Assembly: GCA_949289625.1 (NCBI GenBank)
Contig: CASEPH010000461.1
Location: 1 to 5,007 of the forward strand
DNA: 5,007 nucleotides
Source of the DNA: an uncultured Clostridia bacterium
GTDB taxonomy: Bacteria; Bacillota_A; Clostridia; Oscillospirales; Oscillospiraceae
Direction: 5' to 3'
In this document: piece by piece, positions 1-4,927 of the stretch
Numbering within the stretch: the stretch's first letter is position 1
How the letters are laid out: each line of letters begins with the position of its first letter
Notes under the pieces: generated by a model
The model's database searches: none
What the model was told of the DNA's origin: nothing
The model's input: only the letters and a program-made list of their open reading frames with translations
Program-made: the position numbers and the translations under genes

Positions 1-167
1 GCCACCTCTGTCCTGCCAAACAGGACAGCCAAATAGGATATATCATAGCATTGCAGGAACAGTGCTCTAAGCTCCGAGATTTCCTTGTCAGTCCACGGTT
101 TCCCGTAATTCTCGGGCCGCTTGCTTCCATCCCGGAGCGCCTGTAATTCCTTCTGATATGAAGTCAT
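1..167 (-). CDS. Partial small protein with Myb/SANT- or GcrA-like helix-turn-helix
   Basis: This is the 5' end of a gene that runs off the left edge; 55 codons plus two bases are visible. The ATG at 167-165 follows a strong ribosome binding site (AAAGGAGGG on the minus strand, 184-176) with an 8-base spacer, which makes the start convincing. After a basic N-terminus, residues 24-55 read PWTDKEISELRALF, then CYDISYLAVLFGRTEV. That is the usual pattern of a Myb/SANT-like or GcrA-like helix-turn-helix: a Pro-Trp-Thr cap, an acidic first helix, an 'I-x-x-L-A' turn and a 'GRT-E' recognition helix. It may therefore bind DNA, but the rest of the protein is outside the window and no specific function can be assigned. 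It is transcribed divergently from the toxin-antitoxin pair. A weak minus-strand promoter can be proposed (TTATCA at 272-267, TATGCT at 250-245, 16 bp spacer). Confidence 0.72.
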   Translation of the reverse strand, partial: MTSYQKELQALRDGSKRPENYGKPWTDKEISELRALFLQCYDISYLAVLFGRTEV

Positions 168-285: not shown

Positions 286-573
286 ATGCCAAGTATCCGT
301 CCGGTATCTGATCTGCGAAATCATTTCGCTGAGATCACAAAGGAAGTACAGGAGACCAAGGAGCCGGTTTTCCTGACAAAAAACGGCGTGGGGTCTATTG
401 TCGTGATGAGCATGGACGCCTATGAGGAAGGGCGGTATGAGAGCCAGGTGTACGACAAACTACTGGAGGCCGAAATTCAGGCTGTCAGCACCTCCCGGCG
501 CGTGAGTCATGAGGAGGTCATGCGCTCCGCCAGGGAACGTTTGAAGCAGGCAGAGGGCGATCGCCGTGCATAA
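286..573 (+). CDS. Type II antitoxin, Phd/YefM family
   Basis: This 95-residue protein has the expected size and layout of a Phd/YefM antitoxin. Residues 3-46 carry the family DNA-binding fold: SIRPVSDLRNHFAEI, then a stretch around E26-PVFLTKNG (26-34), then the strand SIVVMSMDAYE (37-47). The C-terminal half (about 50-95) is charged, Glu/Arg-rich and probably helical, as expected for the part that wraps and neutralises the toxin. The ATG at 286 has a textbook AAGGAGG (271-277) with 8 bases of spacing and sits just behind a near-consensus promoter. The toxin gene begins inside its last codons (8 bp overlap), which is typical translational coupling. The likely roles are to neutralise the downstream RelE/ParE-type toxin and, alone or with it, repress the operon. 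The family call is firm; the exact subfamily is not. Confidence 0.9.
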   Translation: MPSIRPVSDLRNHFAEITKEVQETKEPVFLTKNGVGSIVVMSMDAYEEGRYESQVYDKLLEAEIQAVSTSRRVSHEEVMRSARERLKQAEGDRRA

Positions 574-883
574 AATCGAGTACCTGCCGATTGCACAACA
601 GGATCTGATGGAGGCGCTGGACTATCTCATCCTGACACTGGATGCGCCCCAGGCGGCCGCCGAACTGCTGGACGAACTGGAGGATACGGTATCCCGGATT
701 GCCAGGTTTCCGTATGCCCATGAGCTGTACCGGACGAACCGCCCTATGCGGGATGAAATCCGCAAGGTACCAGTGAAGAACTATGTGCTCTACTATGCGG
801 TCTATGAGGAACGTGTAGAAATCCGGCGGTTTCTCCATGGAAGGCGTGACAGAAATCCATCGGTAGTTGAACAAAAAATCTGA
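566..883 (+). CDS. Type II toxin, RelE/ParE superfamily
   Basis: This 105-residue protein has the RelE/ParE pattern. A first strand (KIEYLPIAQQDL, residues 3-14) is followed by a long helical hairpin (about 15-47). The conserved beta core then follows: MRDEIRKVPVKNYVLYYAVY (61-80), ERVEIRRFLHGRRD (82-95). The terminal 'I-R-x-F-L-H-G-R-R-D' block is the most diagnostic part. The start is a GTG at 566, preceded by AGAGGG (552-557) with 8 bases of spacing; no in-frame ATG is suitably placed. The gene overlaps the antitoxin stop (571-573), so toxin synthesis should depend on antitoxin translation. Members are either ribosome-dependent mRNA interferases (RelE) or gyrase poisons (ParE); the sequence alone does not decide which. 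On a mobile element it probably acts as an addiction module. No disruption is seen. Confidence 0.9.
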   Translation: MHKIEYLPIAQQDLMEALDYLILTLDAPQAAAELLDELEDTVSRIARFPYAHELYRTNRPMRDEIRKVPVKNYVLYYAVYEERVEIRRFLHGRRDRNPSVVEQKI

Positions 884-940: not shown

Positions 941-962
941 AGACAAAAAACAATTAGATATT

Positions 963-993
963 ATCGCCATGAATGACCCCGAGGCGATCGGGG
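963..993 (+). promoter_or_regulatory. Two mutually exclusive leader hairpins upstream of the amidoligase gene
   Basis: Stem A pairs ATCGCC (963-968) with GGCGAT (983-988). Stem B pairs CCCCGA (977-982) with TCGGGG (988-993) around a GGCGA loop. Both are perfect 6-bp stems. They share position 988, and the 5' arm of B lies in the loop of A, so they cannot both form as simple hairpins. The GGAGG ribosome binding site of the amidoligase gene follows at 1005-1009. A switch in expression is conceivable but is inferred only from this pairing. No convincing promoter is seen between the terminator and the gene; TATTAT at 959-964 is the only -10-like box and lacks a good -35. Confidence 0.3.
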
Positions 994-1017
994 GGAAAAA
1001 TCATGGAGGTAATGACT

Positions 1018-2139
1018 ATGAGCGAACAAAGAACCTGCGGACTGTGCGGGGAGCCCTATCCAGCTGAAGAACTGTATCCCTTTGACGGCCTAGAGCTCTG
1101 TCCGCATTGCCTGGACCAGCGAACCCTGACCTGTGAACGCTGTGGGGAGCGTATCTGGGACGAGGACAACGCCGGCAGTTCGGACACATCCCTGTGCCAG
1201 AGTTGCTTTGATGACCACTACACCCACTGCTGCCGCTGTGGGACGCTGCTGCACGAGTCCAGCACCTACTACGCCGAGGACGACGATTACGACGAGTACC
1301 CCTACTGCGTGGACTGCTACCAGGAGCAGGGCAAGGACAATCCAATTCATGACTACTACTATAAACCGGAGCCCATCTTCTGCGGAGAGGGGCCCCGGTT
1401 TTTTGGCGTGGAGCTGGAGATCGACAACGGCGGTGAGGTAAAGGGCAATGCCCGCTCGCTGCTGGAGGTAGCCAACCAGGAGCAGACGTTCTTCTACATC
1501 AAGCATGACGGCTCCCTGGACGACGGCCTGGAACTGGTGACGCACCCCCTGTCTCTGGACTGTCACCTTCACAAGGTTCCATGGGCGGAGCTGTGTCAAA
1601 GGGCGGTCTCCCTGGGCTACCTCAGCCACCGGGCCACCACCTGCGGCCTCCATGTCCACGTGAGCCGCAAAGCATTTGGAGCCACGGAGCAGACCCAGGA
1701 CACCGCTATAGCCCGGGTGCTCTACTTCTTCGAGAAGCACTGGGAGGAGCTGCTGAAATTCAGCCGGAGGACGCCCCGGCAGCTGGAGCGGTGGGCGGCC
1801 CGCTACGGCTACAAGGAACAGCCCATGGAGATTCTGGACTTCGCCAAGAAGGGATATCATGGCGGGCGCTACACCTGCGTCAACCTCCAGAACTACGCCA
1901 CGGTGGAGTTTCGTATGTTCCGTGGGACACTGAAGGCAAACACGATCCTTGCCACCCTGGAGCTGTTGGACCGCATCTGTGATCTGGCGGTCTGTCTCAC
2001 CGACGAGGAACTGAAGGCCGTACCCTGGACCTCCTTTGTGGCCGGCATCCCGGCGGAGAAGTTCCCAGAGCTGGTGCAGTATCTCAAAGAGCGGCGGCTC
2101 TATGTGAATGAGCCTGTGGAAGTGGGGGTGGAGGACTGA
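1018..2139 (+). CDS. Amidoligase-family protein with three N-terminal zinc-knuckle modules
   Basis: This 373-residue protein has two parts. Residues 1-100 hold six CxxC pairs forming three CxxC...CxxC modules: C7/C10 with C28/C31, C39/C42 with C60/C63, and C71/C74 with C97/C100. These probably bind zinc, like zinc ribbons or LIM-type fingers. An acidic, Tyr-rich linker runs to about 125. Residues 127-320 match the amidoligase (COOH-NH2 ligase) family of the glutamine-synthetase fold: FGVELEI (E132, E134), KHDGSL with a later E172 and THP, CGLHVHVSR (H212, H214), and VEFRMFRGT (E297, R299, R302). These are the expected metal, ATP and substrate positions. The family is predicted to form amide bonds using ATP; the substrate here is unknown. 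The start at 1018 is chosen because GGAGG (1005-1009) lies 8 bases ahead. Longer in-frame starts at 973, 1003 and 1012 have poorer sites. The stop overlaps the next start by 1 bp (TGATG). Confidence 0.85.
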   Translation: MSEQRTCGLCGEPYPAEELYPFDGLELCPHCLDQRTLTCERCGERIWDEDNAGSSDTSLCQSCFDDHYTHCCRCGTLLHESSTYYAEDDDYDEYPYCVDCYQEQGKDNPIHDYYYKPEPIFCGEGPRFFGVELEIDNGGEVKGNARSLLEVANQEQTFFYIKHDGSLDDGLELVTHPLSLDCHLHKVPWAELCQRAVSLGYLSHRATTCGLHVHVSRKAFGATEQTQDTAIARVLYFFEKHWEELLKFSRRTPRQLERWAARYGYKEQPMEILDFAKKGYHGGRYTCVNLQNYATVEFRMFRGTLKANTILATLELLDRICDLAVCLTDEELKAVPWTSFVAGIPAEKFPELVQYLKERRLYVNEPVEVGVED

Positions 2140-3086
2140 TGTGTTGCCTGTTTGGACTGATTGATTACGGACACCGCCTCACCGGACGGCAGAAGGGGCA
2201 GCTCATCCGCGCCCTGGCGGTGGAGAGTGAGGCCAGGGGCACCGACGCCGCAGGGCTTGCCTACAACTCCGGCGGCAGGCTCCAGATCCACAAACGCCCC
2301 GGCCCGGCCCACAAGCTCCGCCTGTTCATCCCGGACGACGCCCACGTCATCATGGGGCACAGCCGCATGACTACTCAGGGAAGGGCCAAATTCAACCGGA
2401 ACAACCACCCCTTTGCCGGGAACGTGCCCAATACCCGGTTTGCGCTGGCCCATAACGGGGTTCTGTACAACGACCACATCCTCCGCCGGGAAAAGGAACT
2501 GCCCAAGACCAACATCGAGACGGACAGCTACGTGGCTGTCCAGCTCATCGAACAGCTGGGAGTCCTCACACCGGCCAGCCTGAGAACCATGGCGGAGGCC
2601 GTGGAGGGCTCTTTTGTATTCACGGTGCTGGATGAGGAGGACAGCTTCTGGTTTGTGAAGGGGGACAACCCCCTGTGCCTGGAACAGTTCCCACGGCTGG
2701 GGCTCTACGTCTATGCCTCCACCAGGGAGATCCTACACCTAGCCCTGACGAAAACCTGGCTGAGCTGGGAGAAGCCCACCGAAGTACCTGTAGATGGCGG
2801 GGAGATCCTGATGATTACACCGGACGGAGCCCGTCTGTCCGAGCATTTTACCATCAGAGAGGACTGTTTTGCAGCCTGGTACTTGAACCGCCGGGGAGGA
2901 CACCTCTGCACGCCCTACGTCAGCTGTGCGGAGAAGCAGTACCTGCGGGAGCTGAAAAGTATCGCCTCCTGCATGGGCTACTCCGGGGAGGAGATCGACG
3001 CCCTGCTGGCCGAGGGCTGGACTACCGACGAGATTGAAGAGGTGCTGTATGGCTGTGGAGGGGAGGATCTGAGATGCTTGTACTGA
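2139..3086 (+). CDS. Class II glutamine amidotransferase (Ntn glutaminase) protein
   Basis: This 315-residue protein begins MCCLFGLIDYG, so Cys2 becomes the N-terminal nucleophile once Met1 is removed. The class II glutaminase motifs follow in order: RGTDAAG (33-39), GHSRMTTQG (73-81, with R76), AHNG (104-107, with N106-G107 as oxyanion hole) and ETDS (127-130, with D129 to bind the glutamine amino group). GSFVF (157-161) continues the fold. These correspond to the catalytic set of PurF/GlmS-type enzymes, so it should release ammonia from glutamine. No PurF, GlmS or asparagine synthetase acceptor domain follows. Instead, residues from about 250 form a small Cys-containing, helical tail with GEEIDALLAEGWTTDEIEEV, resembling a UBA-like or other three-helix unit. 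The partner enzyme is therefore probably the amidoligase encoded just upstream, to which it is translationally coupled by TGATG. The ribosome binding site (GGTGGAGG, ending at 2134) is close to the start. Confidence 0.9.
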   Translation: MCCLFGLIDYGHRLTGRQKGQLIRALAVESEARGTDAAGLAYNSGGRLQIHKRPGPAHKLRLFIPDDAHVIMGHSRMTTQGRAKFNRNNHPFAGNVPNTRFALAHNGVLYNDHILRREKELPKTNIETDSYVAVQLIEQLGVLTPASLRTMAEAVEGSFVFTVLDEEDSFWFVKGDNPLCLEQFPRLGLYVYASTREILHLALTKTWLSWEKPTEVPVDGGEILMITPDGARLSEHFTIREDCFAAWYLNRRGGHLCTPYVSCAEKQYLRELKSIASCMGYSGEEIDALLAEGWTTDEIEEVLYGCGGEDLRCLY

Positions 3087-3442
3087 TGATAGAACCAGGG
3101 AAAGCCCCCCGGCGTCTGGAGCTGAGCCATAGCCTGACGGAGATGCAGAAAGCCGTAGGCGGCTCCATCCAGATCCTCTACCCCTTTGAAGATCCGGTGG
3201 CCTTGGTGTGCAATGAGGAAGGGAAGCTGTTGAGGCTGCCCGCCAACCGGGCCCTGCGGGATGAGAGCGGTGCCGTCTACGATATTGTGTGCGGAACCTT
3301 CTTTCTGTGCGGGGCTCCGCCGGACAGTGATACACTGGAGGGGTTGACCGAGGAGCAGGCAAGCCGCTACGAACGGCGGTTTGCCCGCCCGGAGCTGTTC
3401 CTCAACATCGGCGGCCATATCATCTGCTTGCCGGATCAATAA
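3074..3442 (+). CDS. DUF3846-like protein, third gene of the amidoligase operon
   Basis: This 122-residue protein has the DUF3846 pattern: SLTEMQKAVGGSIQIL (20-35), a short loop, VALVCNEEGKL (42-52), LPANRAL (55-61) and a Gly-containing strand pair IVCGTFFLCG (71-80). A charged helix follows (about 91-107), then RPELFLNIGGHIICLP (105-120). The function of this family is unknown; it recurs in mobile elements and phages of Firmicutes. The ATG at 3074 has GGGGAGG (3060-3066) at 7 bases and overlaps the amidotransferase gene by 13 bp. An alternative in-frame ATG at 3086 would give a TGATG junction but lacks a site at proper distance. There is no signal peptide or membrane segment. The protein ends naturally at TAA, just before the composition drops at the IS, so it seems complete, although truncation of a few C-terminal residues by the insertion cannot be excluded. 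Confidence 0.78.
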   Translation: MLVLMIEPGKAPRRLELSHSLTEMQKAVGGSIQILYPFEDPVALVCNEEGKLLRLPANRALRDESGAVYDIVCGTFFLCGAPPDSDTLEGLTEEQASRYERRFARPELFLNIGGHIICLPDQ

Positions 3443-3514
3443 CCTTCGAAATTGGGTCAAAAGAGTGCAATGCGCGCAATAAAGTGGTAAAATATAAACA
3501 AAGAGGGGGATAAT

Positions 3515-4927
3515 ATGGGACGATATAGGGACAAAGAAGATCGTGAACAACTGAATCTGTTTCCGATGAGCCTGGAAGACTTAATTGACTCTGAAAACCC
3601 CGTCCGTTTGATCGACGTAATTGTGGAAAATCTAGATATTGCTGCACTTGGGTTTAAATATGCAGTCACTGCAGAGACGGGCCGCAGGCCCTATGACCCG
3701 GCAGATATGCTTAAACTGTATCTGTACAGCTATTACAACGGAATTCGCACATCTCGTAAAATCGAGCGCGAATGTAAGCGAAACATAGAAGTGATGTGGC
3801 TGACGGGGAACCAGACTCCCAACCATAAAACAATTTCAGAGTTCCGCAGAAATAATAAACACTCTATTCAAAAGGCATATAAGGAATTCAATAAGCTATG
3901 CTACAAAATGGGGTTGTGTAGCAGAGATATTGTTGTAGCAGACGGAAGTAAATTCCGGGCCTGGAATAGAAAAGACAATTATTACACAAAAGCCAAGGTT
4001 TCGAAGCAGCTGGAGATGTATCAGGAGCGGATGGAGCAATATTTAGAAACGCTGGATTTGAATGATTCCACAGATGCCGAAGAAGTTCAACGCCAGATGA
4101 ATGCTACACAAAGTCGAATTGCTTTTTATCAAGAGATGGCCATTCGCATAGAGAAGGAAGGGCCTGTATGCACAACAGATTCCGAAGCACGAAATATGCT
4201 TGTAAATAACGGCGGGCATGATATTTCGTACAATGTGCAAATAGCAGTAGAACCCAAGAATCATCTGGTTGTTGCGGTCGATGCTACAAATGAAGGAATG
4301 GATTATAAGCAGCTACATAATATTTCCGCGCAAGCAAAGGCTGTAATGGATACAGATGTACTGACAGTATTGGCTGATAAAGGATATTACAGCGCAGAGG
4401 AATTTCAAAAATGCAAGGCAGATGCTATTAGGCCAATTGTGCCAAAACCTAAGCGAGGTCATTCACAGAATTCGGATTTCTATAAGAGTGAATTCGAGTA
4501 TTGTGCAGAACGTGACGTTTATATCTGTCCGGCAGGGAAAGAGCTTTTTCACCACAAACATACTGAGGCAAATAAAACATCAAAAGAGTTGTATGCAAAT
4601 ACACAGGCCTGCAAAGCTTGTGCTATGCGGAATCTATGTACCAACAGGAAAAGTGGACGGAGGGTTACTCGCTGCCCTAATGATATATTTGCAGATGAAG
4701 TTGATGCAGATACCAAAGCAAACAAACATTTGCTCCGTATAAGAAAGTCAACGGTGGAGCACTGCTTTGGAATTGTAAAAGGAGTCTGGGGATTCTCACA
4801 TTTTCTAACTCGGGGATTAGAAGGTGTGAGGACGGAAGCTTGTTTGCATTTTTGGGTCTATAACATAAAACGAGTAATTAGAATCTTGGGGGTTAGGAAG
4901 CTACAGATGGCTTTGACACTCCGATGA
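3515..4927 (+). CDS. IS1182-family DDE transposase
   Basis: This 470-residue protein is full length for IS1182-type transposases. Residues about 12-115 form the N-terminal InsH/DUF772-type domain (NPVRLIDVIVENLD, RRPYDPADMLKLYLYSYYNG, NHKTISEFRRNN). The catalytic RNase H-like core supplies D143 (VVADGSKFRA), D288 (VLADKGYYSAEE) and E415 (STVEHCFGIVKG). Between the first two lies a long helical, Glu/Gln-rich insertion (about 160-215). Between the last two lies the family's Cys cluster (C330, C338, C366, C369, C375), probably metal-binding. No frameshift or stop interrupts it, so the element could be active. The ATG at 3515 follows AGAGGGGG (3502-3509). A promoter is not obvious; TAAAAT at 3488-3493 is a weak -10 candidate. 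Codon use is AT-rich (many ATA, AGA, AAA), unlike the operon to the left, consistent with separate acquisition. Confidence 0.95.
   Translation: MGRYRDKEDREQLNLFPMSLEDLIDSENPVRLIDVIVENLDIAALGFKYAVTAETGRRPYDPADMLKLYLYSYYNGIRTSRKIERECKRNIEVMWLTGNQTPNHKTISEFRRNNKHSIQKAYKEFNKLCYKMGLCSRDIVVADGSKFRAWNRKDNYYTKAKVSKQLEMYQERMEQYLETLDLNDSTDAEEVQRQMNATQSRIAFYQEMAIRIEKEGPVCTTDSEARNMLVNNGGHDISYNVQIAVEPKNHLVVAVDATNEGMDYKQLHNISAQAKAVMDTDVLTVLADKGYYSAEEFQKCKADAIRPIVPKPKRGHSQNSDFYKSEFEYCAERDVYICPAGKELFHHKHTEANKTSKELYANTQACKACAMRNLCTNRKSGRRVTRCPNDIFADEVDADTKANKHLLRIRKSTVEHCFGIVKGVWGFSHFLTRGLEGVRTEACLHFWVYNIKRVIRILGVRKLQMALTLR

Follow-up and report, generated by a model that had tools for sequence, protein, structure and literature searches.

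The 5,007-nucleotide stretch of DNA analyzed in this study (hereafter, the window) lies on contig CASEPH010000461.1 of an uncultured member of the Oscillospiraceae and carries, on its forward strand, consecutive genes for an amidoligase (ALIG), a glutaminase (GAT), and a DUF3846 protein. Open reading frames (ORFs) were confirmed for all three where a first-pass annotation of this DNA had placed them, with the overlaps that it described, namely 1 bp between ALIG and GAT (TGATG around 2137-2141) and 13 bp between GAT and DUF3846. A second in-frame ATG for ALIG is present upstream, at 973; position 1018 is the start that fits the ribosome-binding site. The unit is the ALIG-GAT pair, not the trio with DUF3846. 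The genes and domains are as follows:

1018..2139, + strand: ALIG, Amidoligase_2 (PF12224), a ligase of predicted glutamine synthetase (GS) fold, 373 aa
1036..1317, + strand: N-terminal 12-cysteine LIM-like region of ALIG, residues 7-100
1387..2136, + strand: GS-like catalytic domain of ALIG, residues 124-373
2139..3086, + strand: GAT, class II (N-terminal nucleophile, Ntn) glutaminase, 315 aa, C-terminal part helical
3074..3442, + strand: DUF3846 protein (PF12957), optional partner

Catalytic features of ALIG and GAT

The Pfam scores of the three proteins exceeded their cut-offs (Amidoligase_2, 38.7 against 22 bits; GATase_6, 52.5 against 27 bits; DUF3846, 119.3 against 27.5 bits), and the active-site residues of the glutaminase and the amidoligase were conserved, in agreement with the earlier claim of intact catalytic and family motifs. 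The Amidoligase_2 match covers residues 170-320 of ALIG, which also matches phrog_16683 (E = 1.7e-84). The predicted model of ALIG, compared over residues 124-373 only, has a GS-type fold that keeps the invariant acidic and basic residues, consistent with the ligase active site that the first-pass annotation had presumed. This fold also matches that of YbdK, a glutamate-cysteine ligase-type enzyme. In the N-terminal region of ALIG, 9 of the 12 cysteines are invariant among 64 sequences, and this region probably binds zinc; LIM-like domains are known for protein contacts.

In class II glutaminases, Cys2 serves as the N-terminal nucleophile, and an Arg, an Asn-Gly pair, and an Asp form the glutamine site. 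All of these features were found in GAT together with the Ntn fold, and the residues concerned (Cys2, Arg76, Asn106, Gly107, and Asp129) are invariant among 48 sequences. Over its 315 aa, GAT matched glutaminase families only; no acceptor domain was found behind it, and full-length PurF, GlmS, and AsnB models scored far below their cut-offs, which bears out the view that no acceptor of these types is present. None of the three proteins matched a family of PADLOC (2023 database) at E <= 0.1.

Constancy of the pair and its viral relatives

Genomic loci were collected with GAT as the sole query against a set holding a single genome for each species, and 80 of the 212 relatives were kept. ALIG lies upstream of GAT in all 80 loci, some of which are cut by contig ends; the gap is at most 0.41 kb in 79 of them, and the remaining one (L006) is a decayed copy. 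The presence of ALIG in every locus fetched by GAT shows that the pairing of the two genes is not due to chance. Among 200 Oscillospiraceae genomes, ALIG and GAT were found in an identical set of 19 and neither was found in the other 181 (E <= 1e-30), whereas DUF3846 lies within 4 kb of only 18 of 43 ALIG places (23 genomes, with fragments and contig-end pieces counted); a survey of the trio, as proposed with the first-pass annotation, thus upholds a strict pair and not the third gene. In a draw of 299 genomes across the phylum, ALIG was present only in the central genome (G001) and one other. The distance correlation between ALIG and GAT was 0.875 in 68 loci and 0.90 when restricted to the 36 loci with the resolvase. 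The decayed copy (L006, 9252-10720) has ALIG residues 1-253 fused into GAT from residue 65, and the same genome, that of Flavonifractor An10, also carries an intact copy (L004).

Alignment with ALIG yielded at least 494 relatives on viral contigs, of which 80 were kept. At a strict cut-off, GAT was just downstream of ALIG in 12 of 82 viral loci, elsewhere in 3, and absent from 67. At a loose cut-off (E <= 1e-2), a GAT-like ORF was found near ALIG in 46 of the 80 loci, and 45 of these 46 ORFs start between -150 and +200 bp from the ALIG end. More distant viral relatives often have a GAT-like ORF directly 3' of ALIG with E between 1e-2 and 1e-6, and these weak matches gain support because their position is constant. 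The strict cut-off had suggested that amidoligases are solo in most phages, a view weakened by the 46 loci at E <= 1e-2.

A quick tree of 154 rows was built from the 156 of 163 loci with a long enough domain, two undecided loci being dropped; the window itself is not a row. The clade of its closest relatives (Shimodaira-Hasegawa-like approximate likelihood ratio test, 99) comprises 85 rows, 84 of which have GAT, a label given by construction for the genomic rows since these were fetched by GAT. Nine of the 10 viral rows within this clade also have GAT. Over the whole tree, the GAT label changes 14 times, against a shuffled mean of 30.4.

Mobile context, optional partners, and leader

On the mobile DNA of gut Oscillospiraceae, the pair is patchy and multicopy, and it occurs near integrases, relaxases, and toxin-antitoxin genes; together with its unrelated flanks, this context agrees with the earlier proposal that it is cargo of a mobile element. 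Four full-length ALIG copies were found in each of two genomes (G003 and G004), and broken copies exist too. Units that are 82-93% identical nevertheless have unrelated left flanks, the breaks lying approximately 63-107 bp 5' of ALIG in several pairs. From 953-955 onward, the window is homologous to L004 and L007 at the DNA level. The L166 locus carries a tyrosine integrase, a DUF5906 protein, and HTH_17, then the divergent genes for ALIG, GAT, Phd, Fic/Doc, and a resolvase, and then a facing HTH_3 regulator, with one more opposite-strand ORF between Doc and the resolvase. A viral entry (L001) has the same gene order minus that ORF, its genes being matched by length and cluster. No convincing direct repeats were found to bound the L166 element, nor were its ends found. 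In L170, a coupling protein and a MobA/MobL relaxase are divergent from ALIG across a gap of about 0.15-0.2 kb, and genes for YqaJ, DUF932, and RecT are located upstream of the unit in L057 and, by cluster, in L054.

Pfam families were tallied for 150 of the 393 ORFs near the pair and 150 of the 212 far from it (>=80 aa, 22 near-duplicate loci dropped, 25 families shown for each). The families near the pair were resolvase (16 vs. 5), HTH_3, DUF3846, integrase, and relaxase. An association with defense, which the first-pass annotation had raised as a possibility, was considered and set aside, given no clear defense excess among the families shown and no direct evidence for defense; the same tallies did not show toxin-antitoxin genes beside the unit to exceed chance. 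A relaxase-like ORF was detected in 14 loci, 5' of ALIG in 12 and 3' of it in 2, using a profile built from 10 of the 14 (L034 and L043 are near-copies). The reading of the locus as a transfer-leading region remains a lead, as divergence was seen for only 6 of the 12 upstream ORFs and no such ORF was seen in most loci. Large conjugative elements were rejected as carriers, since relaxases and coupling proteins on long contigs are mostly far from ALIG, with the exception of G194. Stand-alone relaxase domains of approximately 150-190 aa were observed near ALIG in L015, L028, L034, L036, L039, L043, L067, L073, L076, and L082, and in L067, L076, and L082 the neighbor of this domain is a small protein identified by eye as MobC-like.

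The following features flank the unit in the window:

286..573, + strand: Phd/YefM antitoxin (Pfam match)
566..883, + strand: ParE-family toxin (Pfam match)
3515..4927, + strand: IS1182 transposase
3..167, - strand: small-protein fragment, called Myb/SANT-like by eye

The addiction module and the insertion sequence that the first-pass annotation named as neighbors are therefore both present, but the latter is incidental to the unit. Homology of the window to L003 and L004 ends at 3443, just past the DUF3846 stop, where the IS1182 region starts, and past the equivalent of this break, L004 has a small ORF followed by a resolvase. The insertion sequence, whose ends were not delimited, thus most probably landed between the unit and the resolvase found on this side in the closest relatives. 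Toxin-antitoxin genes occur beside the unit in the window, L044, L046, and L166; in L044 and L046, matches related to the Phd and ParE of the window follow GAT but are encoded on the opposite strand. In L006 and L008, genes for DarT and Macro domains (DarTG-like) lie next to the unit, past the resolvase. The fragment at 3..167 is 43.6% identical to an ORF of L047, and its relatives lie on the opposite strand upstream of ALIG in L047, L037, L007, L015, L025, L034, and L043, and farther from ALIG in L061. Searches of the window revealed no known RNA family up to E = 1, no match of its DNA to plasmids, and one match to phage records, an unannotated record.

A DUF3846 match was found in 29 of the 80 genomic loci, before or after the pair, some loci ending at a contig edge. 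Of the 40 DUF3846 copies in the 23 genomes with ALIG, 18 are close to ALIG-GAT, 3 accompany a second amidoligase with GGCT, and the other 19 have neither nearby. Within the family draw, DUF3846 occurs in 14 of the 19 genomes with ALIG and 41 of the 181 without it; both genes are carried on mobile DNA, so this co-occurrence cannot count as separate evidence that they act together. In 24 loci, DUF3846 distances were correlated with those of ALIG (0.66) and GAT (0.73), and the 13-bp overlap of the window recurs in L003/L004. DUF960, DUF4314, DUF3990, and DUF1643 also recur beside the pair. In 45 of 81 loci (counting L001), among them the closest relatives L003 and L004, a small resolvase is encoded 3' of GAT in the same orientation and no more than 2.5 kb away; two of these matches, in L030 and L048, are fragments with lengths of 47 and 37 aa. 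Of the 36 loci lacking it, 5 have less than 0.9 kb of sequence past GAT. This gene was rejected as a third core gene: it is frequent, but its distance correlation with ALIG is moderate (r = 0.47, above all 2000 permutations).

The second amidoligase adjoins GGCT in G083, G123, G005, and G155, with DUF3846 nearby in G083, G123, and G005. In G083 and G123, both a relaxase and a coupling protein are encoded no more than approximately 11 kb away, and in G155 a coupling protein is encoded no more than 10 kb away; neither was found on the G005 contig concerned. These GGCT-linked amidoligases match PF12224 far more strongly than ALIG does (E = 1e-56 to 1e-84) and are absent from the ALIG profile matches, and that of L171 has no cysteine-rich N-terminus. 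The second amidoligase, GGCT, and DUF3846 stand together at L171 9657-12203 (minus strand), G123:C1 212608-214659, and G005:C12 50603-52980. SAM synthetase-like and C5 methyltransferase-like ORFs (named by eye) adjoin this group in L171.

A common leader, consisting of a -10-like box, a hairpin of variable sequence, and a ribosome-binding site, precedes ALIG in many loci. In the window, it comprises:

957..964, + strand: -10-like box, GATATTAT
977..993, + strand: hairpin with a 6-bp stem, CCCCGA/TCGGGG
1005..1009, + strand: ribosome-binding site of ALIG, GGAGG

The window thus has the box, and its stem is weaker than that of most relatives and below the 7-bp threshold for counting. Stems of at least 8 pairs were found in 44 of 72 ALIG leaders, the corresponding figures being 14% for shuffled sequences and 111 of 418 for other genes, and the box followed by a stem of at least 7 was found in 28 of the 72 loci. 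The box, a stem of at least 8, and a ribosome-binding site occur together at 26 sites before ALIG and 11 sites elsewhere (2.29 Mb, both strands), an excess that is partly circular because the box was defined from ALIG leaders. The occurrences before other genes are free of that circularity: 3 of the 11 precede DUF3846 (L008, L014, and L017), 2 precede DUF960 (L062 and L067), 1 precedes a resolvase (L066), and L076 is probably a third DUF960 case, by eye, while the others precede no clear gene or other genes. A leader common to ALIG, DUF3846, DUF960, and resolvase genes hints at a shared regulon.

Known systems and proposed function

The founding analysis of amidoligases is reportedly that of Iyer in 2009. 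Phage gene sets with an amidoligase and a GATase are described in the available text of PMC3890496, PMC10580990, and PMC5498523, and a related set with an aminohydrolase in that of PMC11945000; PMC5498523 and PMC11945000 use the terms peptidoglycan modification cassette or module. Calling the system uncharacterized, as in the first-pass annotation, was therefore too strong. As far as these sources describe them, the sets of LUZ24-like phages, PSA-HP1 and its relatives, and OM43 phages bring the same two kinds of gene together on mobile DNA, and the amidoligase and GATase of the LUZ24-like set are close together, as in ALIG-GAT. The LUZ24-like and PSA-HP1 sets add an ATP-grasp protein, GGCT, and a further amidoligase, whereas in ALIG-GAT only the pair is constant and adjacent. 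The joint occurrence of amidoligase and GATase genes, a feature of the phage cassette, is thus shared by ALIG-GAT. For the COOH-NH2 ligase (PF14395), another gene considered for the cassette, a search of 23 genomes gave no match, and its control was silent as well.

The amidoligase-GGCT module of Tn6164 in C. difficile, in the available description, likewise places an Amidoligase_2 gene on an integrative element; Tn6164 and the modules of G083, G123, G005, and G155 have GGCT in place of GAT. The partly consulted sources on MurT-GatD, which amidates peptidoglycan glutamate, also describe a ligase and a glutaminase amidating a carboxylate, but MurT resembles Mur ligases and ALIG has a predicted GS fold. 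GatD is a class I glutaminase, and GAT, a class II enzyme, sets ALIG-GAT apart from MurT-GatD. YbdK-type carboxylate-amine ligases and glutamine synthetase have a predicted fold in common with ALIG; to our knowledge, they have neither a cysteine-rich N-terminus nor a dedicated GAT. A literature search covering titles and the starts of abstracts, with most subscription papers outside its reach, revealed no study of ALIG-GAT on Oscillospiraceae elements among the matches listed. Amidoligase-GATase pairs are known from phages, and the ALIG-GAT form with its recurring helper genes is hardly described.

We consider it probable that ALIG and GAT constitute a two-subunit glutamine-dependent amide synthetase, carried as mobile-element cargo, and that its product helps the element. 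GAT would hydrolyze glutamine, freeing ammonia, which would be handed over within a complex to ALIG; the latter would spend ATP to activate a carboxylate and join to it the ammonia, an amine being the less likely alternative. Through its cysteine-rich N-terminus, ALIG probably holds on to either the substrate or GAT, and DUF3846 would be an optional accessory. The element would benefit, most plausibly, through amidated cell-wall precursors or an amidated envelope component of the host. Cell-wall precursors are our leading guess for the target, by analogy with phages. Several observations weigh against this proposal. GGCT, usual in phage sets read as cell-wall modifiers, was not found near ALIG-GAT in the 23 genomes, where the closest of five GGACT matches is approximately 51 kb from an ALIG-GAT copy and the others are farther away or on other contigs. 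No cell-wall gene is constantly linked to the pair, and 34 of the 80 viral relatives kept have no GAT nearby even at E <= 1e-2; therefore, GAT may be dispensable for amidoligases of the wider family.

The main rival, a possible though less likely one, is that the pair amidates a protein or peptide, such as a host defense or regulatory protein or a small protein encoded by the element (DUF3846 or DUF960, for instance), with the cysteine-rich N-terminus as its guide. The LIM-like character of this 12-cysteine region, the recurrence of the small uncharacterized proteins DUF3846, DUF960, DUF4314, and DUF3990 beside the pair, and the location of DUF3846 next to two kinds of amidoligase are consistent with such a target; however, none of these small proteins is present in every locus. 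It is rather doubtful that the pair instead makes a small soluble metabolite, an amide or amine conjugate, as metabolic cargo and not as an envelope modifier. Both proteins look cytoplasmic and the ALIG fold matches YbdK, but no transporter or further biosynthetic gene was seen to be constant beside the pair, and relatives are widespread in viral contigs, which points instead to a part in conflict or in taking over the host.

The shared leader also allows a more speculative reading, to which we give little credence, in which ALIG-GAT is an establishment system made early after entry that amidates a host target so that the element settles or rivals are excluded. Leaders shared among genes and rich in inverted repeats, but much longer, are described for pLS20-family establishment regulons in the available text of PMC8708921. 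Anti-defense genes are reported in transfer-leading regions (PMC11541004), and a word search of the available main text of that paper found neither amidoligase nor DUF3846. An obligate trio, functional only with DUF3846 as a subunit, is very improbable: the 13-bp overlap, the co-occurrence across genomes, and the distance correlations point toward it, but it is largely refuted because ALIG copies without DUF3846 exist (25 of 43 places have none within 4 kb, some at contig ends), and for 19 of the 40 DUF3846 copies no amidoligase was found nearby.

DUF3846 is nonetheless tied to amidoligases in two separate settings. Taken together, ALIG-GAT is a compact, strictly paired two-gene system, small enough for purification and assay, and it bears on a question that has stood since phage amidoligase sets were noticed, namely what gets amidated.
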